Assembly (NCBI GenBank): GCA_018004935.1
Contig: JAGNBF010000059.1
Location: 1-46,965, forward strand
Source of the DNA: Chloroflexota bacterium
Lineage (GTDB): Bacteria; Chloroflexota; Anaerolineae; Promineifilales; Promineifilaceae
Reading direction: 5' to 3'
DNA: 46,965 nucleotides
The position numbers and the translations under genes were made by a program. Under the pieces are notes generated by a model, which saw only the letters and a program-made list of their open reading frames with translations, had not been told where the DNA came from and searched no databases. Positions 3,023-46,960 of this stretch are shown one piece after another (position 1 is the stretch's first letter; every line of letters starts with the position of its first letter).

Positions 3023-3102
3023 GTAATCGTTCGGAAATAAGTTAGGTGGCGCGGTCAGAAGACCGGCCACAGCAAACCGCTAAGTTAAAAACGAACGATT
3101 AC
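3023..3102. mobile_element. 80-bp MITE-like element, copy A, TAA target duplication
   Basis: Begins GTAATCGTTCGG and ends CGAACGATTAC; the terminal 11 bp are perfect inverted repeats. TAA directly repeated at 3020-3022 and 3103-3105 is read as a target-site duplication. The core GGTGGCGCGGTCAGAAGACC followed by GGCCACAGCAAA is shared with copies at 5074, 6494, 20458, 38951 and 46360. It is too short to encode a transposase, hence non-autonomous. Confidence 0.75.
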
Positions 3103-5073: not shown

Positions 5074-5153
5074 GTGCGTGTCTAAAAATAACTTGGGTGG
5101 CGCGGTCAGGAGACCGGCCACAGCAAACTCAAAAGTTATTTGTGGGCGAATCC
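5074..5153. mobile_element. 80-bp MITE-like element, copy B, in tandem with P1
   Basis: Shares the TAA at 5071-5073 with the preceding element and ends before TAA at 5154-5156. Core GGTGGCGCGGTCAGGAGACC is as in copy A. It is followed at 5157-5175 by an orphan end matching the right end of copy A (AAAACGAACGATT), which points to nested or serial insertion at one hotspot. Confidence 0.65.
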
Positions 5154-7474: not shown

Positions 7475-10400
7475 ATGAAGTCAAAGACCCCCCTTTCCGT
7501 TTCCACTGTTCCTGCCCGCCTCAATCCCTGGCAAAAAATTCGTCCAGCTCTGCTTATTCCCTTTTTGGCTTTGGGTATGCTGGCGGGTCTGTTGGTATTA
7601 CTAAACCAACCTACTGCCGCTAACGCGGCCGCAACCCTCTCAACACCCATTGGTTCAGTGAACACGAATACCACCAGCCAGACCCGCGGCCGCGCCCCTC
7701 TGGCTAATATTCTTTATGTCACTACCAATGGTAGCGGGGCCGTCTGTACCATTGCACAACCCTGTACCCTGCAAGACGCCGTCAACGCCTCCAGTTCCGG
7801 GGATGAAATCCACGTTGCGGCAGGGTTATATAATGATGTTTATGGCAATGGTGTTTTCACCCAAACCGTCCAGGTCAACAAAACCATTACCCTGCGCGGG
7901 GGATACACCAGCACCAACTGGTTAGCTGAACCCGACCCGGTCGCCAATGAAACCATCCTGGATGGCAATAACCAGGGGCGTGTGATTTATATTTTCGCGG
8001 CCGCGCCCACTATCGAAGGGTTCACCATCCGCAATGGGCGGGCTACCATCGGCGGCGGAATCTACAAAGTCACCATTCAGGGTAGCCTCATCCAAAATAA
8101 TCGCATTTACAACAATACAGCCATCGGGGGCGGTGCATCTGGGGCAGGTATTTATACCCAAGGCAATGACACCATCCTGAACAACGAAATTTATGATAAC
8201 GATGCCGTGGCGAATGGTGCGGGCATTTACGCTACCAACTCCGCAGGTAGTGGGGTCGTCATCCAAAACAACCGCATTTACAACAACACGGCCGGGGCCG
8301 CCGGGGGTTCAACCATTGGGGGGGGCATTTTCCTTTTTAGTGGGATCATGACCGTAGACGGCAATGAAATTTTTGGCAACGAAGCCAATCTGGGGGGCGG
8401 TATAGGCTCCGTTCCCGGCACAACCTCCTATCTACAAAATAACTTCATCTACAACAATCGTGGGATAGTGGTTAGTACTGGGGCGGGCGGGGGTATTCTG
8501 GCTGGGGGGAATGTCCACCTTATTCACAACACCATTGTAGATAATATGGCCCCCTCGGCGGGAGGGGGGGGTATTTTTGCCGTCAGTGCAGTTGTCCATA
8601 TTACCAACAGTATTGTTGCCAGTAATACAGGAACAAGTAATGCCGGTATTTTCAGTTCGGCCAGCACCATTTCTGGCGCGAACAACAATATTTTTAACAA
8701 CGCAACCAATGTTACGCTTAATGGCACTATTACCAGTAATCCCCGCTTTGCCAGTTATAGCGGAGACAATTTTCATCTGTCGGCTAGTAGCACGGCTCTC
8801 ATTAATACGGGCCATGTTGTAGCCCTGACGAATGATATAGATGGGCAACTTCGCCCCTTCGCCGGAGGTTATGACATTGGGGGGGATGAGTTTTATGACC
8901 CTGCTCTAACCTGCTTCGCCCGTGTCAATGAAGGTCCTATTTTTACCAGTATTCAATCTGCGTTGGCTACCGTTACCCAGGCCAGCGATATTGTGAAGGT
9001 AGCTGGGCGTTGCCGCGACACCGACACGGAAGTGGTTTTGCTCAGTCAATCTCTGATTTTGCGTGGGGGTTACACCACCACGGACTGGATCAACCAGGAT
9101 GATGGCCCTACGATTATTGACGCACAAGGGGTCAGCGGCCGCAGAGGGATTCGTATCACCGCGGGTAGTCCTACTGTTGATGCGCTACACATTACAGGGG
9201 GCACGTTGACCTCTGGCAATGGCTCGGCTATTTATGTGAGTGGTGGTGCCAATGCCGTTTTACAAAACCTGGTGCTCTATGGCAATACCACGGCGGGTAC
9301 AAATGGGGCTTTAGGGGTAGCTTCAGGGACAAATCCCACTGTGCAGTTCAACACGATTGTCAACAATAGTGGCATTGGGGTACGTTTTGAAGGAACGGGG
9401 GCCATTCATAACAGTATTTTGTACGGTAATTCTAGTACAGCTATCAGTGGGGGGTTTGGCCATACCTTTAACCTGATTAATGTGAACCCGCAATTTGTCA
9501 ACGCGGCCGCGAACAATTATCACCTCACTGCTTTGTCCCCCGCCATCGGTGCCGCCGATCCAAACGCCGCTCTCAGCCGTGACTTTGAAGGCAATACGCG
9601 GCCGCTGGGCAACCATTTCGATGCCGGTGCAGATGAAGCCAATGAGTTTCCTGCCGTCTCTTTTGAACCTGGCTACGCCGATGAAGTTGACCGGGGAACC
9701 GTCGTCGCCATTGATCATGTCCTGACCAATTTAGGCACCGAACCTGACACGTTTACTCTCAGCGGGAACAACAACCTTAACTGGGATATAAATTTCCTCA
9801 CCACAAGTGGCCTGTTGGCCCCTGGTGAAGGTCTCCAGGTAACGGTTGTTATCACGGTTCCGGCAGGTGCTTTGCCGCAACAGGTTGGCGTGACCATTGT
9901 TACGGCTACCTCAACCTTTAATACCAGTGTCCACGATACAGTTGTGGATACCCTGACCGTAGCCCAAGTCCCTGGCATTCAGTTTACTCCTACCTACTCT
10001 AATGCCCTTTTGCCGGGTGAGGCCATCACCTACACCCACACGCTGACCAACACCGGTGATTATTCTGACACGTTTGCTGTGGAATTAGAAAATGATCCCT
10101 TTGGGTGGGCCGAGTTAATCCCAGATGATCCTTTTACGGTTACTTTAGCGGCTGGGGAAAATACACCCGTGGTTGTGGTGGTAACGGTTCCAGAGTTCGC
10201 GGCCGCGGGTTTTGCGGACACCATCATGATTCGGGCTACTTCCACCTACTCCCCGGCCATTACTGCCGTCGTTACGGATACGGTCACTGCCAAACCTACC
10301 GTTGGCACTCGCTACGTCTCGAACAGCGGTTTTGATCTCAATAATAACTGTACCCAACTACTCCAACCGTGTCGCACCGTGGGTCAAGCGGTCAGCCAGG

Positions 10401-13400
10401 CCTCCTTTGGTGATGCCATACGCATCGCCACGGGGACCTATGCCGAAGCAGACATCACCGTAAATGACACGATGTACCTCTCCGGCGGCTGGACGAATAA
10501 CTTTACCGCCCAAACGTTTGATCCCACTACAACGGTTATCAATGCCGCCCAAGAAGCCCGTATCTTCAGCATCGCTCCGGGAACTCAGCCCAGTTTTGCT
10601 TACCTCAGCCTGGAGAATGGCCTCAGTAGTGCGGTGGGTGGAGCCGTCTGGATTGGCAATGGGGCACAGCCGGACTTTGATCATGTGCATTTTCTGAATA
10701 ACCAGAGTGGTCAGGGTGGGGCCATTTATGCGGAAGCCAACACCAATACCGACCTTGTGGAAAGCCGTTTTGTGGATAATGTGGCTTCCCGTAATGGGGG
10801 TGCTTTCTTCCTGGTATCTGGTAGTTCTCTGATTTCAGCTACGGCGTTTGTGGATAATATTGCCCTGGGAACGCAAGAATTGGAAGGGGGTGGTGCTCTC
10901 TACCAACAGGCAGGTACGCTGACCGTCTTAAACGGTCTATTCGCTTCTAACAGTTCGGCCAAGCATGGGGGCGCGATTTTCGCCCGCAACGGGCAGGCCA
11001 CGATTGAATTCAGCACCATTGTTGAAAACACGGCCGCGGGCAGTGGTAGTGCGCTCTACAGCAACAATGCGGCCGCGACCCTGCGCAACTCCATCATCGC
11101 CAATAACAATAGTGTTTCTGGTGGAGCCTTATTCCGCAACACTGGCTCCATCCCCAACAGTTACAATCTCTTCTGGAACAACCTGCCCGATAACGGCAAT
11201 GTAACACCAGGGTCCAATTCCGTCTTCGCCGACCCAGAGTTTGCCGACCCCGCTTATCGTCTCTCCCCAGACTCGATAGCTGTAGATGCGGCCGACCCCA
11301 CGACAACGCTTGAAGTAGACTTTGAACGTGATGCCCGTCCGGCCGACTCCGGTTTTGATATGGGGTACGACGAGCTGGCCGGTTGCCTGGCGAAACGAGG
11401 AGCCACCATTTACGCCAGCATCCAGGAAGCAGTGGATGCCGGTACGGGTGGGAATCTCATCCAGGTGTCTGGTATCTGCCGGGGTGCTCAGGGACAGGAT
11501 ATCGGGGGCGGTGTTATTGTCAGCCAGACCGTTTTTCTGACCCAGGCCTTGATTATTGAAGGGGGCTGGAATAGTAGTTTTACCAGTAATTTCCCCCTTG
11601 TGCCTACTTATATTGATCCACAAGGACAAGGGCGAGGTATCTACATTAGTGGCACAGCGGGTGTCGAAATCCACAACATCACCATCATTAATGGAGATGC
11701 TACCGGTTTAGGGGGTGGGCCAACCGGACAATCCGCAGGTGGGGGTATTTATAACCTCTCCAGTGATAGCTATTTTGGTCAGATAGCCATTATTAACAGT
11801 ACGGCCCAGGTAGGAGGCGGTTTATATCTTGCCAGCAGTACTATCTCTTTCACGGGCAGTGCGATCATTAGCGGCACGGCCACCATCGGTGGTGGCCTGT
11901 ACAACAATGGAGGTATTACCCACCTGTCTAATAGTGGCTTCTTGAATAATACCAGCACTGGCAATGGGGGTGGGGCGTATAGCATCGGCGGTGAGTTCAC
12001 TGTTTTGAATGTGGTATTTGCCGAGAACGCGGCCGCGAGCGGGGCCGGTATCTATCTCAATAACAGTCCGGCCACATTGCTCCACCTCACCATGTACGAC
12101 AACAATGCCACCAGCAATGGTGGCGGTATCTACCAGACCGGCAATAGTAGCACCATTCGTAATGGCATCTTTGTCAGCAATAACGGAGCCAGTGGGCCAG
12201 CCATTTTCATCACGGGTGGCACCAGCAGTATTGATTACAACTATTACTATGATCACCTCAGCAATCCGGTGATTGGGGGTGTACTGGGAGCAAACTCCGT
12301 CAACACCAATGTCACCCCCCCCGGTCTGGTTGATCCGGCGCTGGGCGATTTCCATTTGCTCGACAACGCGGCCGCGCTCGACATCGCTGACCCCAACTCC
12401 CCCGTGCTTTATGATATTGACCTTGACCCTCGCCCCTCTAATCAGGGGTTTGACATGGGAGCAGACGAACTGGCTGGTTGTTATGCCCGTGTAGATGGCA
12501 TCATCTACGGGAGCATCCAACGAGCCATCCAGGTCGCTGATCCCGGGGATCAAATTGATGTCGCTGGGCGTTGTGGCGGTGTGCATACCTACAATGCTGG
12601 CGGAACATTAGGTGTCATCAGTACCACTGTGCACATCACCAAAAATGTCACTTTGGAAGGCGGCTGGCGCATCACCTATGAAGCCCAGGATGATGTAACG
12701 GTCATTGATCCTGGTCAGAATGGGTTCGCCCTCTTTGTTGCCCCTGGTATCACCAGCACCGTCAAAAATTTCCATCTGATCAACGGTAACGGCAATGCTC
12801 CTGGCCTGAATGGCAATGGTGGGGCCATTTATATTCATAACGCTTCCCCACAAATCTTGGGGAATAACATTTATAGCAATACGGCCACCAGTGGCTCGGC
12901 TATTTACATTGACAATGCTTCACCGGTTATTGGTGGGGGCAACCGTGTTTACAGCAATACTGCCACCAACGGCTCTATTTATATCAACAACACGGGCGCA
13001 ACAGCGACCATTGTCAATAACTTTATCTCTGGTAACACAGTGACTAACAATGGGGCCGGGTTGTATCATCAAGCCGGGGCGGCCAATATCTGGCACAACA
13101 ACTTTATCAACAATGAGGCGGTGAATGCGGGTGGGGCGATTTACGTCGCGGCCGCGTCACCCAATATCCGCAACAATATTATTCTAGGCAACGCGGCCGC
13201 GACCACAGGCGGCATCCGTTGCAATACCGGGGCCACCCCCGTCATCAACTACAACGACTACTTCACCAACACAGGGGGGGATGTTAGTGGGGCCGCCTGT
13301 ACCACGGGCGCAAATGGCTTCTTTGTAGACCCCCTGTTCATCAATGCCCCCATTGGCAACTACAACCTGCAAGACACATCCCCCATGCTCGACGTGGGTG

Positions 13401-16400
13401 ATCCTACCATGACCCTGTTAGTGGATTACGAAGATCGCATCCGGCCATCCCATCAGGGTTTTGACATCGGGGCTTACGAATTCGGTGGCTGTTACGCCCG
13501 TAATCTGGATACCCCCAATACCATTTTTGGTAGCGTACAATGGGCTGTAGATCAAGCGGCCGCCGGTGATACTATTCAGGTAGACGGTATCTGCTATGGG
13601 GTCAATACCCAAACCGTTTCCGGCAACCCCACCACCCAAAACCTGTTCATCAATAAAGATATTACCATTGATGGCTTGTGGAATGCCGGGTTGCCCGGTA
13701 GTGGGGATGGCCTGGCTACCCTGCAACCCCAAGAAGCCGGGCGTGTTGTGTATGTCGCCAGCGGCCGCGTCGTTACCCTCACCAACATCCTACTCTTTAA
13801 TGGGGATGCCAACGGGGCTGGCCTCAGCAATAACGGCGGTGGTGTATACAATACCGGCAACCTTATCCTCGACACGGTAACAATTCGCTTTAGCCTCGGG
13901 GCAAACGGAGCTGGCATCTACAATGTTGGACCTCTCTTGGTCAACGAATCCATCATCCAGGAAAACAACGGCACCAATGGCGGCGGCCTCTACAACAATT
14001 ACAGCGGCCAAACCAGTATCACCGGGACCCAAATTGCTCTAAATGTAGCTACCAACTCTGGGGGTGGTGTTTACCAAAACCTGGGCACATTACTCCTGGA
14101 AGACAATCAGATCAACGGTAATATTGGCTCCGTTAGTGGTGGGGGTGTCTACCAGAATACGGCGGTGTTACGTCTGTTGCGCAACACAATCTACAGCAAC
14201 AGCGCGAGTGGCAATGGTGGAGGCATCTATCTGAACGCCACCACTGGAGCCAACCAGGTATACAACAACTTCATCTATGACAACGAGGCCACCCTCGGTG
14301 GCGGGTTGTACAACGCCACCACCAACACCGGCATCTGGCACAACACCTTCGTAGACAATACCGCCACAGGAACGAACGGTGGAGCCATCTTCTCAGCTGG
14401 GGGCAACCTGGTCATCCGTAACAACATCGTTCATGATAATACCGGCACCGGCATTCACGTCATCGCTGGCTCACCCACTATTGGCTTTAACAATGTTGTG
14501 GGCAACAGTGCGGCAGGTTATGGCGGCACTGCCAGCGATAGCGGGGGTGGCATTGCCCAGGCCCCGGACTATGTAAATGCCGCCAATCGTGATTACCATC
14601 TAGACTTTGGCTCTTCGGGCATAGATGTAGGGGATCCGGCGGCTCCGGTAGCAGTAGATATTGACGCGGACAACCGCCCCAATAATGATGAGTTCGACAT
14701 GGGGGCGGATGAAGTCAACGCCTGCCTCATTCGTGTGGAAACGGCCATCTTCACTCACTTGCAAGATGCCATTAACTATGCCGAAGCAAACAACTTCACC
14801 ACCGTAGAAATCGCCCGTGGCGAATGCCGGGGTGTGCGCCCAGATCCGGTCAGTGGCACCACGCTACAGGTCGGTTATGTGCGCGAAAACATCCACTTCA
14901 TCGGCTCGCTACGTCGCACCGACTTCAGCGACCCCGATGATTTCCATAACCTTCTTATCCGAGCCAACTCCTCGGCTATCAACGCCGAAAATCAGGGGCG
15001 GGTCATTGTGATTGGTTCATCCACAGCGGTGGTTACGTTCACCCATGTGGCTCTGGTGAATGGCAACGCCTTCCAGGCTAATGATGGCAATGACAATGGC
15101 GGTGCCCTTTATAACCTCAATGGCTCGGTGGAAACGGCTGAAGCCAATTTCTGCGGCAGTCAGGCGGTGGATGGAGGTGGTTATTATGGCGGAAGTAGTG
15201 CCGATGCTTATTTAAGCGGCGGTAGTATCGGTAGTTGCCGGGTAGCGGAGGTGAGTGATGGGGATGTCTTGATAGGGTATGACCTTTATTCTGGCAATAG
15301 CGTCAGCGGTAATGGCGGGGGGGTATTTAGCCAGGGCGGTTTGGATATGAGCAATATTGGTATTTATCGCAACTCGGCCGGGAATCATGGCGGGGGTGTC
15401 TACAATACCAGCGCGGCCGCGACCCTCATCAATGTCATCCTCTATGACAACCTGGCCACGGCCAACGGCGGTGGCCTTTACAACACCGGCAACAGCCTGG
15501 AGATTTATCACAACACCATCCGCGATAACAATGCTCAAAACGGGGGTGGTGTATTCAACACCGGTACAGGCCTGGTGATTAACAGTACCATCGTCGCCAC
15601 CAATACGGCGACAACTACAGGGGGTGGTATTCACACCGTTGGTGGCAATCTCGGCTATAACAACTTCTATCAAAACAGCCCCAACGATTCTACTATCGGC
15701 GTGGGCACAGCGGCCCGCCTGGGTGATCCAGGCTTTGCCGCCGAGTCTGTCTTCCACCTGGCTTACACCTCTGACAACATAGACACAGCGGATTCAACAC
15801 TGGTATTACCACCCCTCAACATCACATTCGACGGGGACCTTGACTTCCGCCCAGACGCTCAGCTTGCGCCCCATAATGGCCCCTGGGAATATCGGAGTGA
15901 TATTGGCGCAGATGAGTACGCCAAAACCTTCCTGTGTGAACTATTGCCGGAAAGTCAGTCCCAGGCGGGACCAGCCGGAAGCACTGTTTTCCATATCTTT
16001 AACCTCATCAACAAAGGCAGTTTCACAGACACCATTACAATCACCCTGCAAAGCAGTACCCAGGGTTGGGCGACATTGGTAGGCGGGCCACAAGCTATCA
16101 CAATGGCACCGTTCTCCAATTACACGGTTACTCTAAGTGTGGCAATCCCCCTGACGGCCACCACCAATATGGCCGATACGTCTGTTTTGCACTGTGATTC
16201 CCATGCCATACCGGGGAATAGTGACATCGGCACAGCCACCACAACGGTTGAATTGGTACAAGGGGTATTGGTGGAGCAAGATCAGACAGCCTTTGCATTC
16301 CCCAGCGAAGTGCTGACCTTCACCCATGTCATCACCAATGTGGGCAACCGCACCGAAGATATCCAGATCATCCCCAATTCCGGGCCACAATTCGCAACCG

Positions 16401-19400
16401 CATCTCTGTACAACCTGGATGGTTCACCGTTCTTCCCCGACACCATTACCTTGGATGCCGGAGAAGCGATTTCGCTCCTGCTCCAGGTCACAATGTTTGA
16501 TGATGCGATGGGGGGTGGTGTTGCCACACCTGGGGTGATAGCCCGGCTCGCGGCCGCGCCTACCATCTTTGATGCCGCCCAAAACAACATCACTATCGGC
16601 TTCGTTCCTGGAACTCGTTACCTGGCCGCCAGTGGCGCCGTAGATAACTCCAACTGCACCAGCCCCAACAACCCCTGCGCCACCCTGCAACATGCAGTGA
16701 ACCAGGCCTTAAACGGAGATGACCTCTTGCTCTCCGCGGGTTCCTACACTGATTACAGTACTCGCACCCTTGGGGCTAACGTCATCCAACAAACCGCTTT
16801 CGTGGACAAAGACTTGAGCATTACCGGCGGTTACAACGCTGGCGATGGCTACACCACCTTCCAACCAATCACCAACAGTGTCACCCTGGACGGTCAGGGT
16901 AACGGACGTATTTTCTATCTAACCAGCGGAATTGATGTTATCCTGACCGGCCTCTTCATGGAACACGGGTATGAAGCCAGCTTTGGCGGAGCTATCTACA
17001 ACACCGGGGCCAACCTCAGCTTACAAGGAAACTGGGTCCAACAGAACCGCGCTGAGTATGGCGGCGGTATTTATCACCTGACAGGTACACTGACAATCAA
17101 TAGCTCGGTCTTTGCCCATAACCTCTCTAACAATGAAGGCAACACCTCACCCGGTGAAGGGGGAGCCATTTATGTGGCGAATGGCTCAGTCATCCTGGAA
17201 AACAACACCTTCGCTGACAACGAAGCGGTTGTCACCAGTTTTGCCCCAACCGCCAGTGGGAATGGGGGTGCCATCTTCCAGGCAGATGGATCAGTGAACT
17301 TGCAGAACAACATCTTTAGCCTTAACCAGGCCGATGGGTCAAATGGGGCCTATTACTTCGCTCCCGCTGTCAATATCCTGGCCAATGATTACAACCTGTT
17401 CTTTGGCAATACACCAAACAATGGCAACGTTTTCACTGGCACGCACAGCTTCACGGCCAATCCTCTCTTTGCTGATACCCTTTACCATCTAGGCAGTGGC
17501 TCCCAGGCCATTGACGCCGGTACAACTGCCGTAACCCAAGGGCCAGATATGGACGGCGAGCCACGGTTACAAGGTATTGGCATAGATATAGGCGCGGACG
17601 AACTGACGCAGGTAGCTACCTTCGCCTTTACTCCGGTCTTCCAGAGCGCTTTGATTAGCAGTGGCGACCAGTACACCTATACGCACATCCTCACCAATAC
17701 CGGTGACTTTGCCGATAGTTACACGCTGGCGATGGGGCATAACACTACGGGAGGAACGGGTTGGGGTTACAGCCTTGATCCACTCACCACGAACGTTCTT
17801 GATCCCGGGGAATCCATTCAAGTGACGCTAGTGATTACAGGGGCTAACCCCGGTTATGTGGATACCACAGTGATCACCGCCACATCTACGGCCTCAAATC
17901 TGTCTCTTGTTGTGACGGATGAGACCACCATCAGCCAGGTGGCAGGCGTCAATATTGAGCCACCACGCATGGGTGATGGTTTGGCCGGGGGTACAGTCCA
18001 GTACACGCATCTGGTAACTAATACCGGTGACGGGCCGGATAGCTTCAACCTGACGGTGGCATCGGCCACCCCACCCGGTTGGGTAATCACCATTAACCCC
18101 ACAAATACAGGCGTATTGTTACCCGGCGACGCGGCCGCGATCACGGTCACTCTGCAAATTCCGCTCAATGTCACCGTTACCCTACACACCGCCACCATAC
18201 AGGCCGCCAGTGTCGTCAACCCGGCGGTCACGGATAGCGTGGTAGACACGACCAACATCTATCTGGCCGGTGCACTCCTGGAGCCAGACCACTTCCAGGT
18301 GGTAGACCCCGGCACGGTCATTACCTACAACCACACACTCACCAATACCGGAAATGTAAGTGACACCATTGTTCTGACTTACACCAGCTCGCTAGGTTGG
18401 CTGGTGAGTGTTGACCCCATGTCGGCGACACTGGAGCCAGGAGAAGGGACGGCAATTGTCGTAGTAGTGAGTGTACCGGTTGCGGCCGCGCCAGGAACGC
18501 AAGATGACAGCATCATCACCGCCCGCTCCACTTTTAACCCCCTTATCACCGATACGGCCACCGATAATACCCGCGTGACCCAAGATCATGGGCTGACCTT
18601 TACCCCTGACCTTACCCAAACCGTCCCCGCCAACACCGTGGTGGTCTACACCCACATCCTCACCAACACGGGCAACGGCCCCGACACCTTTGCTATCACG
18701 GCCACCAGTAACCAGGGTTGGAACGTACAAACACCAGCCAACCTCACCTTAAACGAAGGAGCATCCGCAACGGTACTCGTAACCTTAACCGTACCCACCA
18801 CCGGACCAGTAACCGACACCATGCAAGTAACAGCCACCTCGGTTATTAGTCCGGCTTATAACGCCACCGTCACCGATACCACCATTGTCACCGGGCCTGT
18901 GCCCATTGCCGGAGTGAATATCGAAGCCGACCAAATTGGCTCAGGGGTCGCCGGAACACAGGTTGTCTACCAACACACCATCACCAATACCGGCAACATC
19001 CCCGATACCTTCAGCCTGACGTATGACTCCAGCCTGAACTGGACGGTGACGATTGTGCCAGATAGCATCCCCCTTGATGCTGGAGAAAGCACCACAGTAC
19101 AGGTGACAGTCAATATTCCTGGCGGCACAGCCTCCGGGACAGCTGATGTCACCACAGTAACGGCTACCTCGACCTTCAACCCCACGGTTTCTGATGCAGT
19201 GATAGATACAACCACCGTTAACGCCAGTGGTGGAGCGGGGGTACTCATCGAACCAGACAACACGGGGGCAGATATCGCCGGAACCACCGTGTTGTATCAG
19301 CACACCATCACCAATACAGGTGCCAATGCCGATACCTTCACCCTCACCATCGCATCCAGCGAAGGGTGGACAGTAGATGTGGGACCAGACAACGTGGCGC

Positions 19401-20449
19401 TGGATTCTGGCGAAACTGGGACAGTCGCAGTCACCGTAACCATCCCGGCTGGAGCTACAAGTGGCATAAGTGACATCACCACAGTCACGGCAACTTCCAG
19501 CACCAATCCCAACATCTCAGACATCGCTACCGACACGACTCAAGTACTCAATGTCGGAGCAGGAGTTCTCATCGGCCCAGACCAGCAAGGCCAGGGTACA
19601 CAAGGAAGTGATGTTGTTTATACCCACTGGGTCACAAACACCGGCAATATCACCGACTCCTTCCTGATCAGCCCCATATCCAGCAATGGCTGGTCAACCA
19701 TTGCCAATCCCAACTTCTTTAGCCTGGCACCAGGTGAACGAACGCTGGTGACGGTGACATTGAGCATCCCGGTAGATGCCACAATCGGAACCACAGATGT
19801 AATGACCATTTCTGCCTCGTCCACGACACCACCTAATCCTATTGATACAGCCATAGACCTCACAGAAGTGATTGAAGGGGTTTCTGGGGGCACAGTCTAT
19901 CTGCCCCTGGTCTTAAAACCGTGTGTGCCAACAAATATAGATCTCGTGGTGACGAGTCTGGAGATTGTTCCGGCCAATCCACAGGCTGGTCAACAAGTTA
20001 CAGTACGGATCACAATCCGGAATCAGGGTACGGTTGGCGTAACGGCTGGCAATAACTTCTTCCTGGACTTCTATGTGGATCGGGTACCGGAAATATTAGT
20101 CGCTGGGGATCTGGCCTGGGGTATCCAGGGCAGTTGGATGGCCGCGGGAGCCAGCCGCACCCTTACGGCAAATTACACCTTCACGGCCGGAACACATCAA
20201 TTGTGGGCACAGGTAGACACAGATAACACAGTGGCTGAATGCCCGAATGAGCTAAATAATCTCTTAGGGCCAGTTTCACTGACAGTCACTGGGGCCGCCG
20301 GGCAAGCAATTCCGGTTATTACCCCAATAGCTCCGTCGCCGTTGGATATGCCGCGCCCAACTCCCACCCCCCTGGCTCCCGGCGAACAGGACAACCCGTT
20401 AACGGAATCCACCGGAGATGAGGTTATCAACCCATCCACAACCGAATAA
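7475..20449 (+). CDS. giant exported repetitive protein (beta-helix modules, Ig-like repeats, CARDB-like domain)
   Basis: 4324 residues in one unbroken frame of 12,975 nt. A signal peptide covers residues 1-50 (basic n-region, hydrophobic LIPFLALGMLAGLLVLL, then TAANA). Eight pectin-lyase-fold modules rich in GGGIY/NNTA turns follow, each closing with a choice-of-anchor-Q-type box (F/Y-D-I/M-G-A-D-E) near residues 470, 720, 1300, 1665, 2000, 2415, 2815 and 3378. Most modules open with a C-x-A/I-R box, SIQxAI and a second Cys (GRC/GIC), perhaps a disulfide. Eleven Ig-like repeats marked THTLTNTG..DTF lie in groups of two (about 725-940), two (2818-3040) and seven (3380-4135). Then come VYLPLVLK (about 4140), a CARDB-like domain (4150-4245) and a Pro-rich tail. 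No transmembrane anchor or sorting signal is visible. A secreted adhesin or sheath/matrix protein is likely; enzymatic activity is not evident. AAGG precedes the ATG at loose spacing. About 18 GCGGCCGC sites lie inside. Confidence 0.93.
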   Translation: MKSKTPLSVSTVPARLNPWQKIRPALLIPFLALGMLAGLLVLLNQPTAANAAATLSTPIGSVNTNTTSQTRGRAPLANILYVTTNGSGAVCTIAQPCTLQDAVNASSSGDEIHVAAGLYNDVYGNGVFTQTVQVNKTITLRGGYTSTNWLAEPDPVANETILDGNNQGRVIYIFAAAPTIEGFTIRNGRATIGGGIYKVTIQGSLIQNNRIYNNTAIGGGASGAGIYTQGNDTILNNEIYDNDAVANGAGIYATNSAGSGVVIQNNRIYNNTAGAAGGSTIGGGIFLFSGIMTVDGNEIFGNEANLGGGIGSVPGTTSYLQNNFIYNNRGIVVSTGAGGGILAGGNVHLIHNTIVDNMAPSAGGGGIFAVSAVVHITNSIVASNTGTSNAGIFSSASTISGANNNIFNNATNVTLNGTITSNPRFASYSGDNFHLSASSTALINTGHVVALTNDIDGQLRPFAGGYDIGGDEFYDPALTCFARVNEGPIFTSIQSALATVTQASDIVKVAGRCRDTDTEVVLLSQSLILRGGYTTTDWINQDDGPTIIDAQGVSGRRGIRITAGSPTVDALHITGGTLTSGNGSAIYVSGGANAVLQNLVLYGNTTAGTNGALGVASGTNPTVQFNTIVNNSGIGVRFEGTGAIHNSILYGNSSTAISGGFGHTFNLINVNPQFVNAAANNYHLTALSPAIGAADPNAALSRDFEGNTRPLGNHFDAGADEANEFPAVSFEPGYADEVDRGTVVAIDHVLTNLGTEPDTFTLSGNNNLNWDINFLTTSGLLAPGEGLQVTVVITVPAGALPQQVGVTIVTATSTFNTSVHDTVVDTLTVAQVPGIQFTPTYSNALLPGEAITYTHTLTNTGDYSDTFAVELENDPFGWAELIPDDPFTVTLAAGENTPVVVVVTVPEFAAAGFADTIMIRATSTYSPAITAVVTDTVTAKPTVGTRYVSNSGFDLNNNCTQLLQPCRTVGQAVSQASFGDAIRIATGTYAEADITVNDTMYLSGGWTNNFTAQTFDPTTTVINAAQEARIFSIAPGTQPSFAYLSLENGLSSAVGGAVWIGNGAQPDFDHVHFLNNQSGQGGAIYAEANTNTDLVESRFVDNVASRNGGAFFLVSGSSLISATAFVDNIALGTQELEGGGALYQQAGTLTVLNGLFASNSSAKHGGAIFARNGQATIEFSTIVENTAAGSGSALYSNNAAATLRNSIIANNNSVSGGALFRNTGSIPNSYNLFWNNLPDNGNVTPGSNSVFADPEFADPAYRLSPDSIAVDAADPTTTLEVDFERDARPADSGFDMGYDELAGCLAKRGATIYASIQEAVDAGTGGNLIQVSGICRGAQGQDIGGGVIVSQTVFLTQALIIEGGWNSSFTSNFPLVPTYIDPQGQGRGIYISGTAGVEIHNITIINGDATGLGGGPTGQSAGGGIYNLSSDSYFGQIAIINSTAQVGGGLYLASSTISFTGSAIISGTATIGGGLYNNGGITHLSNSGFLNNTSTGNGGGAYSIGGEFTVLNVVFAENAAASGAGIYLNNSPATLLHLTMYDNNATSNGGGIYQTGNSSTIRNGIFVSNNGASGPAIFITGGTSSIDYNYYYDHLSNPVIGGVLGANSVNTNVTPPGLVDPALGDFHLLDNAAALDIADPNSPVLYDIDLDPRPSNQGFDMGADELAGCYARVDGIIYGSIQRAIQVADPGDQIDVAGRCGGVHTYNAGGTLGVISTTVHITKNVTLEGGWRITYEAQDDVTVIDPGQNGFALFVAPGITSTVKNFHLINGNGNAPGLNGNGGAIYIHNASPQILGNNIYSNTATSGSAIYIDNASPVIGGGNRVYSNTATNGSIYINNTGATATIVNNFISGNTVTNNGAGLYHQAGAANIWHNNFINNEAVNAGGAIYVAAASPNIRNNIILGNAAATTGGIRCNTGATPVINYNDYFTNTGGDVSGAACTTGANGFFVDPLFINAPIGNYNLQDTSPMLDVGDPTMTLLVDYEDRIRPSHQGFDIGAYEFGGCYARNLDTPNTIFGSVQWAVDQAAAGDTIQVDGICYGVNTQTVSGNPTTQNLFINKDITIDGLWNAGLPGSGDGLATLQPQEAGRVVYVASGRVVTLTNILLFNGDANGAGLSNNGGGVYNTGNLILDTVTIRFSLGANGAGIYNVGPLLVNESIIQENNGTNGGGLYNNYSGQTSITGTQIALNVATNSGGGVYQNLGTLLLEDNQINGNIGSVSGGGVYQNTAVLRLLRNTIYSNSASGNGGGIYLNATTGANQVYNNFIYDNEATLGGGLYNATTNTGIWHNTFVDNTATGTNGGAIFSAGGNLVIRNNIVHDNTGTGIHVIAGSPTIGFNNVVGNSAAGYGGTASDSGGGIAQAPDYVNAANRDYHLDFGSSGIDVGDPAAPVAVDIDADNRPNNDEFDMGADEVNACLIRVETAIFTHLQDAINYAEANNFTTVEIARGECRGVRPDPVSGTTLQVGYVRENIHFIGSLRRTDFSDPDDFHNLLIRANSSAINAENQGRVIVIGSSTAVVTFTHVALVNGNAFQANDGNDNGGALYNLNGSVETAEANFCGSQAVDGGGYYGGSSADAYLSGGSIGSCRVAEVSDGDVLIGYDLYSGNSVSGNGGGVFSQGGLDMSNIGIYRNSAGNHGGGVYNTSAAATLINVILYDNLATANGGGLYNTGNSLEIYHNTIRDNNAQNGGGVFNTGTGLVINSTIVATNTATTTGGGIHTVGGNLGYNNFYQNSPNDSTIGVGTAARLGDPGFAAESVFHLAYTSDNIDTADSTLVLPPLNITFDGDLDFRPDAQLAPHNGPWEYRSDIGADEYAKTFLCELLPESQSQAGPAGSTVFHIFNLINKGSFTDTITITLQSSTQGWATLVGGPQAITMAPFSNYTVTLSVAIPLTATTNMADTSVLHCDSHAIPGNSDIGTATTTVELVQGVLVEQDQTAFAFPSEVLTFTHVITNVGNRTEDIQIIPNSGPQFATASLYNLDGSPFFPDTITLDAGEAISLLLQVTMFDDAMGGGVATPGVIARLAAAPTIFDAAQNNITIGFVPGTRYLAASGAVDNSNCTSPNNPCATLQHAVNQALNGDDLLLSAGSYTDYSTRTLGANVIQQTAFVDKDLSITGGYNAGDGYTTFQPITNSVTLDGQGNGRIFYLTSGIDVILTGLFMEHGYEASFGGAIYNTGANLSLQGNWVQQNRAEYGGGIYHLTGTLTINSSVFAHNLSNNEGNTSPGEGGAIYVANGSVILENNTFADNEAVVTSFAPTASGNGGAIFQADGSVNLQNNIFSLNQADGSNGAYYFAPAVNILANDYNLFFGNTPNNGNVFTGTHSFTANPLFADTLYHLGSGSQAIDAGTTAVTQGPDMDGEPRLQGIGIDIGADELTQVATFAFTPVFQSALISSGDQYTYTHILTNTGDFADSYTLAMGHNTTGGTGWGYSLDPLTTNVLDPGESIQVTLVITGANPGYVDTTVITATSTASNLSLVVTDETTISQVAGVNIEPPRMGDGLAGGTVQYTHLVTNTGDGPDSFNLTVASATPPGWVITINPTNTGVLLPGDAAAITVTLQIPLNVTVTLHTATIQAASVVNPAVTDSVVDTTNIYLAGALLEPDHFQVVDPGTVITYNHTLTNTGNVSDTIVLTYTSSLGWLVSVDPMSATLEPGEGTAIVVVVSVPVAAAPGTQDDSIITARSTFNPLITDTATDNTRVTQDHGLTFTPDLTQTVPANTVVVYTHILTNTGNGPDTFAITATSNQGWNVQTPANLTLNEGASATVLVTLTVPTTGPVTDTMQVTATSVISPAYNATVTDTTIVTGPVPIAGVNIEADQIGSGVAGTQVVYQHTITNTGNIPDTFSLTYDSSLNWTVTIVPDSIPLDAGESTTVQVTVNIPGGTASGTADVTTVTATSTFNPTVSDAVIDTTTVNASGGAGVLIEPDNTGADIAGTTVLYQHTITNTGANADTFTLTIASSEGWTVDVGPDNVALDSGETGTVAVTVTIPAGATSGISDITTVTATSSTNPNISDIATDTTQVLNVGAGVLIGPDQQGQGTQGSDVVYTHWVTNTGNITDSFLISPISSNGWSTIANPNFFSLAPGERTLVTVTLSIPVDATIGTTDVMTISASSTTPPNPIDTAIDLTEVIEGVSGGTVYLPLVLKPCVPTNIDLVVTSLEIVPANPQAGQQVTVRITIRNQGTVGVTAGNNFFLDFYVDRVPEILVAGDLAWGIQGSWMAAGASRTLTANYTFTAGTHQLWAQVDTDNTVAECPNELNNLLGPVSLTVTGAAGQAIPVITPIAPSPLDMPRPTPTPLAPGEQDNPLTESTGDEVINPSTTE

Positions 20450-38950: not shown

Positions 38951-39030
38951 GAGTTCGCCCGCAAATAACTTTTGAGTTTGCTGTGGCCCGTCTCTTGACC
39001 GTGCCACCCACGTTATTTCCGAACGATAAC
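38951..39030. mobile_element. 80-bp MITE-like element, copy E
   Basis: Starts GAGTTCGCCCGCAAATAACT and ends GTTATTTCCGAACGATAAC. TAA flanks both sides (38948-38950 and 39031-39033). Core GGCCCGTCTCTTGACCGTGCC. It lies between the kinase gene and the upstream glycoside-hydrolase gene, and would be translated as an N-terminal extension if an upstream start were chosen for the kinase. Confidence 0.75.
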
Positions 39031-45506: not shown

Positions 45507-46376
45507 ATGAAACCTGCCCCCTTTGCTTATTCTGCTCCCAAAACGCTGTCTGAGGCCTTAGCCCTCATGACCCAACATGGTGATGAAGCCAAGGTTTTAG
45601 CCGGGGGCCAAAGCCTGATCCCGGTGATGAATTTCCGGCTGGCTCAACCAACCCGACTGATAGACCTGAATGGGGTGGATGGATTAGCCTTTATTCGGGC
45701 GGAAAAGGATGGTTTGCATATTGGAGCAATGACGCGGCAACGGCAGGTTGAACGCTCGGCAGAGGTGGCACAATATGCGCCTTTGGTACATGAGACAATG
45801 CCCCACATTGCTCACCCGCAAATTCGGAATCGTGGCACGTTTGGGGGGAGTATTGCCCATGCAGACCCGGCGGCGGAGTTACCGGCCATTGCCGTGACAT
45901 TAAAGGCCCGTTTGCGTCTGCAACGGCAAGGCAGTGAGCGTTGGGTCACAGCCCCAGATTTTTTTACCGGCCTTTTTGCCACCGATCTGGCTCCCGATGA
46001 GATTCTAACGGAAATTGTCTTTCCCCCCTTGCCCGCGGGTACGGTAACGGCTTTTATCGAATTTGCCCGGCGACATGGGGATTATGCCACGGTTGGCGTC
46101 GCGGCCGCACTCACTTTTACCCCTGATAATATCTGCACCGGGGCACGGCTGGTTTATCTGAGTGTGGGCGAGGTGCCCACCATCGCGGAAAAGGCTTCCT
46201 CTTTGTTGGTGGGTGAAAAATTAACGACAGCCGTGATGTCTGCGGCCGCGCACACCGCCGCTTATGAAGAAGTAACTCCAGATGATGACATCCACGCCAC
46301 TGCGGCCTATAAACGTCATCTGACCGACGTGTTAACCCGTCGGGTACTCCACACTATTAGTACTCGTTCGTTTTAA
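45507..46376 (+). CDS. coxM: molybdenum hydroxylase FAD-binding medium subunit (CoxM-like)
   Basis: 289 residues, usual length. FAD-binding subunit of the xanthine-oxidase family, showing both FAD signatures: AGGQSLIPVMNFR (about 32-44) and TFGGSIAHADPAAELP (about 111-126). It takes electrons from the molybdenum subunit through the 2Fe-2S subunit encoded next. Substrate (CO, nicotinate, xanthine, others) cannot be told without the large subunit. GAGAAG precedes the ATG. The last codons (AGT ACT CGT TCG TTT TAA) and the stop lie inside a MITE-like element (46360-46438), so the natural C-terminus has been replaced. Two GCGGCCGC sites. CoxM is only the family-level name. Confidence 0.92.
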   Translation: MKPAPFAYSAPKTLSEALALMTQHGDEAKVLAGGQSLIPVMNFRLAQPTRLIDLNGVDGLAFIRAEKDGLHIGAMTRQRQVERSAEVAQYAPLVHETMPHIAHPQIRNRGTFGGSIAHADPAAELPAIAVTLKARLRLQRQGSERWVTAPDFFTGLFATDLAPDEILTEIVFPPLPAGTVTAFIEFARRHGDYATVGVAAALTFTPDNICTGARLVYLSVGEVPTIAEKASSLLVGEKLTTAVMSAAAHTAAYEEVTPDDDIHATAAYKRHLTDVLTRRVLHTISTRSF

Positions 46377-46438
46377 CTTAACGATTTGCTGTGATCGGTC
46401 TCCTGACCGAGCCACCTATCTTATTTCCGAACGATTAC
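46360..46438. mobile_element. 79-bp MITE-like element, copy D, inserted at the end of coxM
   Basis: Begins GTACTCGTTCGTTTTAAC and ends CCGAACGATTAC; TTA flanks both sides (46357-46359 and 46439-46441). Core GGTCTCCTGACCGAGCCACC. The first 17 bp supply Thr-Arg-Ser-Phe and the stop codon of coxM; the rest lies between coxM and coxS. Confidence 0.8.
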
Positions 46439-46480
46439 TTAGCACCAAAAAATAAAGCTGTCCCCATTGAGTATGTTTCT

Positions 46481-46960
46481 ATGACCCAAACCATTACCCT
46501 CACCGTCAACAATCAGCGTTACGAAAAAACGGTCGAACCCCGTCTCTTGCTGAGTGATTTTTTGCGCCATGATTTGGGCCTCACGGGTACCCATGTGGGT
46601 TGCGAACATGGGGTGTGTGGCGCGTGCACGATTTTATTCGATGGGGCACCGGTACGCTCTTGCCTGATGTTGGCCGTACAGGCAGATGGACACACACTTA
46701 TGACGGTAGAAGGGTTAACTCCTGATCCCAAGCAGTTACACCCTCTGCAACAGGCGTTTTGGGAAGCTCATGGGTTACAATGTGGCTTCTGTACCCCTGG
46801 TATTTTGATGACCATGCTCCCTTTTCTAGAAGAAAACCCGAACCCCAGTGAAGCCGAAATTCGGGAGGCTCTCTCAGGTAATTTATGCCGTTGCACAGGG
46901 TATCAACATATTGTCACAGCCGTCCAGCTCGCGGCCGCGAAACATGCTTTACACCCCTGA
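46481..46960 (+). CDS. coxS: molybdenum hydroxylase 2Fe-2S small subunit (CoxS-like)
   Basis: 159 residues, usual length. N-terminal plant-type ferredoxin domain with Cys41, Cys46, Cys49 and Cys61 (CEHGVCGAC, then RSC), then a helical [2Fe-2S] domain with Cys101, Cys104, Cys136 and Cys138 (CGFCTPG, CRCTGY). It carries electrons between the molybdenum cofactor and the FAD of CoxM. The frame is open to 46391, inside repeat copy D, but the ATG at 46481 begins the conserved ITLTVN strand. The ribosome binding site is poor (TGAG), so translation may depend on the preceding cistron. The catalytic large subunit is expected just beyond the window edge. A GCGGCCGC site near the end gives AAA. Confidence 0.93.
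   Translation: MTQTITLTVNNQRYEKTVEPRLLLSDFLRHDLGLTGTHVGCEHGVCGACTILFDGAPVRSCLMLAVQADGHTLMTVEGLTPDPKQLHPLQQAFWEAHGLQCGFCTPGILMTMLPFLEENPNPSEAEIREALSGNLCRCTGYQHIVTAVQLAAAKHALHP

Follow-up and report, generated by a model that had tools for sequence, protein, structure and literature searches.

Target duplications of TA are characteristic of the Correia, RUP and ERIC elements, and duplications of the TNA or TWA type are known for the ISL2 and IS1031 groups of the IS5 family. Small mobile sequences of the enterobacterial ERIC/RU type have been described to provide the last codons and the stop codon of a gene (PMC2759123), and MITEs residing inside transcripts can serve as RNase III sites (PMC10969869).

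In the window (the whole stretch of 46,965 nucleotides analyzed, representing contig C14 of an 8-Mb genome in 229 contigs), a coxM-like gene for the FAD-binding medium subunit of a CO dehydrogenase-type molybdenum hydroxylase was identified on the forward strand at positions 45,507–46,376 (Pfam FAD_binding_5, E 2.6e-48; CO_deh_flav_C, E 2.9e-22; orthologs). It is followed on the same strand by a coxS-like gene for the [2Fe-2S] small subunit (46,481–46,960; Fer2_2, E 3.1e-34; Fer2), the start of which was placed by alignment to relatives. The contig ends 5 nt past the coxS stop, before any coxL. Elsewhere in the window, a very long open reading frame of 4324 aa was noted (7475–20,449).

A MITE-like element of 79 bp without genes occupies positions 46,360–46,438 of the forward strand and equals an 80-bp consensus minus one T; in total, this copy deviates from the consensus at five positions (four substitutions and the lost T). 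The element is bordered by TTA target duplications at 46,357–46,359 (the TT of an ATT and the A of an AGT codon in coxM) and 46,439–46,441, both read directly from the sequence, the former also resting on the TNA statistics given below. The first-pass annotation had proposed the same extent with TTA on either side, and its coordinates were correct. The inverted ends of the element comprise 11 bp each (GTAATCGTTCG/CGAACGATTAC), being represented here, on the forward strand, by the left terminal repeat GTACTCGTTCG (46,360–46,370; consensus GTAATCGTTCG) and the right terminal repeat CGAACGATTAC (46,428–46,438). Between them lies the core hairpin GTGATCGGTCTCCTGACCGAGCCAC (46,391–46,415, forward strand), which is common to all arm subfamilies. 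The consensus features stop codons in all three frames, at most 23 nt from either end. For the RNA of the element, a fold of -23.5 kcal/mol was predicted (z -4.2 versus shuffles), a stability that is expected of any palindrome.

The proposal of a MITE-like insertion was borne out by the genome itself, for which 42 BLAST matches, most of them with 85–94% identity, and 253 occurrences of the terminus TNAGTAATCGTTCG at no more than one mismatch were obtained, as compared to six for the reversed control. Twenty copies were alignable from end to end and had unrelated flanks, and the exact core was found 170 times (control: 0). Family statistics were based on approximately 1.9 Mb of the genome, about 0.62 Mb of which had been picked blind to the element. 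In total, 219 cores were counted, and the 48 of them located in the blind sample of 622 kb correspond to approximately 600 core copies per genome. Boundaries appeared at fixed offsets from the core (TWAG at -35 and CTWA at +22), and 77 out of 87 bounded copies were intergenic, compared to about 20 expected from random 80-bp placements. Hence, the small mobile family is real and reaches a high copy number in this Chloroflexota genome. Further bounded copies of the superfamily in the window are located at 3023–3102 and 5074–5153 (both TTA/TTA) and at 38,951–39,030 (TAA/TAA); the copy at 5074–5153 has mismatched arms and, like some other copies, apparently lies inside a type-A end, which indicates nesting.

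The same TNA was present on both sides in 19 of the 21 copies with well-matched arms (9.7 by shuffle) and in 62 of all 87 bounded copies (37.4 by shuffle). Furthermore, one copy (locus L102, reverse strand, at about 15,258) resides within another high-copy repeat of approximately 100 bp (GTAGGACGATTTTGTAAATCGTCC...), and its flanks, once joined at a single TAA, match many paralogues of this host repeat across the junction (GTTAAGCACAG), which provides a direct empty site. At the level of the family, it is thus established that insertion duplicates a 3-bp TWA target.

Near-identical cores were found between different arm pairs (GTAATCGTTCG, GGGTTCGCTCG, GTAACCGTCTAAGA, GGATCGAAGATTAAATAAC and GGATTGACGATTAAATAAC), with arm types being sorted by an objective arm-complementarity score. 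The pairing of the terminal arms amounted to 499, versus a mean of 441 and a maximum of 480 in 5000 shuffles, and paired changes were recorded on both sides (T-A/G-C at positions 2/79 and A-T/T-A at positions 4/77). Among copies with mismatched arms (0–4 of 11), the same TNA on both sides was seen in 3 out of 10, corresponding to the chance level in this small sample. Mismatched arms without a matched duplication suggest that resident copies have recombined or that contigs were mis-joined during assembly. We tentatively consider a modular superfamily, in which the near-invariant hairpin core GCTGTGGCCGGTCTCCTGACCGNGCCAC is combined with at least four to five arm pairs, all at TWA, and in which resident copies may exchange arms, and possibly also the chromosomal flanks, when recombining at the core; this is a possible reading, with odds well below even. 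Additional palindromic repeats (GCCTGAGCTTGTCGAAGGC type) bounded by CTWAG-like sites were observed at L104 (11,038–11,121), L136 and L180, and suggest that other hairpins use the same target.

BLAST searches of 58 other related genomes yielded matches in 21, mostly to the core alone, and the exact 27-letter core was present in none of 399 other genomes of the phylum, few of which belong to the same family. In the literature search, the core letters were encountered only in one unrelated paper, and no such element was described for Chloroflexi; likewise, Rfam returned no family at the coxM-coxS site. The superfamily is without a description in the literature searched. With its several hundred copies, common core and interchangeable arms, this superfamily of a group of uncultured Anaerolineae would help to interpret genome rearrangements in their MAGs.

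At the coxM-coxS site, the present coxM end reads ATT AGT ACT CGT TCG TTT TAA (...L H T I S T R S F stop). Half of the AGT codon derives from the host, and Thr-Arg-Ser-Phe-stop (46,362–46,376, forward strand) belongs entirely to the element, so that the codon reading confirms the assignment of the last residues and the TAA to the insertion. When the flanks are joined at a single TTA, the resulting empty site ends in ...RRVLHTISTKK*, with its stop five codons past the insertion point and a reconstructed length of 288 aa, versus 289 aa now. Consequently, no reading frame was cut short, and the claim of the first-pass annotation that the insertion had ended one is not supported. The near-intact length is explained by the stops that the element brings in all three frames. 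Counted from the conserved YKRHL motif, the coxM tails of relatives comprise mostly 20–32 residues, and the present tail comprises 22. The nearest coxM relatives in named records are Anaerolineae/Caldilineaceae MAGs, which makes an uncultured Chloroflexota the most likely host. With coxM identities of only about 62–65% and no genome of the same genus listed, the relatives are too distant to display the coxM empty site itself, and the pre-insertion end was reconstructed from one sequence. It could be argued that the insertion truncated a longer C-terminal tail and made the present stop, since the tails of most relatives (23–31 aa) exceed the present one. However, the position of the empty-site stop speaks against this, as do three relatives (L022, L032 and L041) whose tails end at 21 residues, the length inferred for the ancestor. 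Any longer tail would have been gone before the insertion, or the stop in the flank would have arisen later. A truncation is regarded as improbable. Judged from the sequence, the coxM end is exchanged and not truncated, with a tail still within the range of relatives. In the coxM frame, S-N-R-S-F-L-T-stop would originally have been encoded by the consensus; today's S-T-R-S-F-stop would then have resulted from an A-to-C change and the loss of one base in a T run.

The gap between coxM and the likely coxS ATG at 46,481 covers 104 nt (46,377–46,480). It had been described as almost entirely element, which is overstated: 62 nt are indeed element, but 3 nt belong to the duplication and 39 nt to the host. 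The remaining host spacer (46,442–46,480, forward strand) starts with GCACCAAAAAATAA, i.e., the old coxM end S-T-K-K-stop, after which 25 nt remain to coxS. Enlargement of the spacer by the element and the weakness of the coxS ribosome binding site, no good one being present upstream of the gene, were correctly recognized in the earlier reading; by the present reconstruction, the spacer increased from about 25 to 104 nt. Gaps in relatives ranged from -4 to 236 nt; among 48 relatives with adjacent genes, 20 had gaps of 10 nt or less and 19 had gaps above 40 nt, these counts being approximate because the starts of coxS and of the next gene were chosen mechanically. The element core was absent from the relatives' gaps listed, and unrelated palindromes recurring tens of times per genome were found in the same gap (G021/G034 and G024). 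The range of gaps and the unrelated palindromes in at least two lineages indicate that coxM-coxS spacing is permissive. The loci from other genera in which unrelated multicopy palindromes were seen in the coxM-coxS gap are L030, L031 and L027, and two loci (L065 and L067) have 796 and 633 nt between the genes, apparently with an extra reading frame. An insertion hot spot at coxM-coxS was considered and rejected, since gaps between coxS and the next gene were enlarged equally often (17/48 versus 19/48; Fisher p 0.83).

The element might have been kept as a regulator whose stem-loop uncouples coxS translation or acts as an RNase site and thereby sets the coxM:coxS ratio. Its stable RNA fold and the stable palindromes present in the same gap of several relatives agree with such a role, and an effect on expression is conceivable in view of the RNase III precedent, given that RNase III cleaves Correia-type MITEs in transcripts and that ERIC alters mRNA levels (PMC10969869); nonetheless, none of the present observations points to such an effect. 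Against this stand the equal enlargement of the downstream gaps, by which the junction is not special, the short gaps of 10 nt or less in 20 of the 48 relatives, and the decay of this copy from the consensus at five positions. Moreover, neither a sigma-70-like promoter nor a terminator was predicted within 46,200–46,600, and the coxS start was predicted to be similarly open with and without the element (unpaired 0.64 versus 0.59) and is not buried in the fold. A regulatory role is therefore regarded as unlikely. The first-pass annotation had suggested a possible influence on subunit ratio or mRNA stability; any effect on the ratio would probably be small.

Regarding the mobilizing enzyme, the domains DDE_Tnp_1 (PF01609), DDE_Tnp_4 (PF13359) and DDE_Tnp_1_2 (PF13586) had no match in the genome, although the MAG may omit the transposase; multicopy insertion sequences are often lost from short-read MAGs. 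Type-A end pairs at most 3 kb apart were searched in approximately 1 Mb, and no transposase was recognized by eye in the IS-size pairs inspected, the longest open reading frames of which resemble, also by eye, ordinary host genes. As an alternative to a MITE, a REP-type element mobilized by a RAYT, a transposase of the Y1 tyrosine type, would fit the conserved central hairpin and the inverted core pairs in relatives, but is very improbable: the inverted ends of the element are clear, and its 3-bp target duplication is of a sort that Y1 enzymes are not known to generate. Furthermore, only one protein with a Y1_Tnp domain was found in the genome, a regulator-like fusion of 389 aa without element ends beside it. 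In this protein (L151, 643–1809), the Y1_Tnp domain follows a response-regulator-like N-terminal part, and it looks like a domesticated transposase domain.

Taken together, the data favor, with a probability of about 0.8, a MITE-like insertion that exchanged the coxM end in a nearly length-neutral manner, lengthened the spacer and was near-neutral for the operon. In this lineage, a palindromic, non-autonomous element, presumably mobilized in trans by an unseen transposase, would have entered coxM at a TTA located five codons upstream of its stop, duplicating the TTA and introducing stops in all frames over no more than 23 nt. With minor subsequent mutations of the element, the last two to three coxM residues would have changed from S-T-K-K to S-T-R-S-F, and the distance to coxS would have increased from about 25 to 104 nt. 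For the operon, this was most likely a tolerated, near-neutral change; the utmost consequence would be a weakened translational coupling of coxM and coxS and an additional stem-loop in the mRNA. The effect on coxM-coxS is probably minor and the insertion of an ordinary kind. It nevertheless represents a clean case of how a MITE can insert at the end of a gene and leave it nearly undamaged, owing to the stops in all three frames at both element ends.

Like the bacterial MITEs Correia/NEMIS, RUP, ERIC/RU and Nezha, the element is shorter than 300 bp, lacks coding capacity and features inverted ends, a short target duplication, hundreds of mostly intergenic copies and a stable RNA fold. It differs from them in its TWA duplication, in the several arm subfamilies on one near-invariant central hairpin, in its uncultured Anaerolineae host and in that its partner transposase was not found. 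With the ISL2 and IS1031 groups of the IS5 family, it shares only the 3-bp TWA duplication, which is a lead only, since its ends match no named insertion sequence and none of the searched transposase domains was present in the genome. The closest parallel to the coxM end is provided by the ERIC/RU 3'-end fusions, in which a mobile sequence likewise gives the final codons and the stop; those fusions extend the gene, whereas the exchange in coxM leaves the length almost unchanged (288 to 289 aa).
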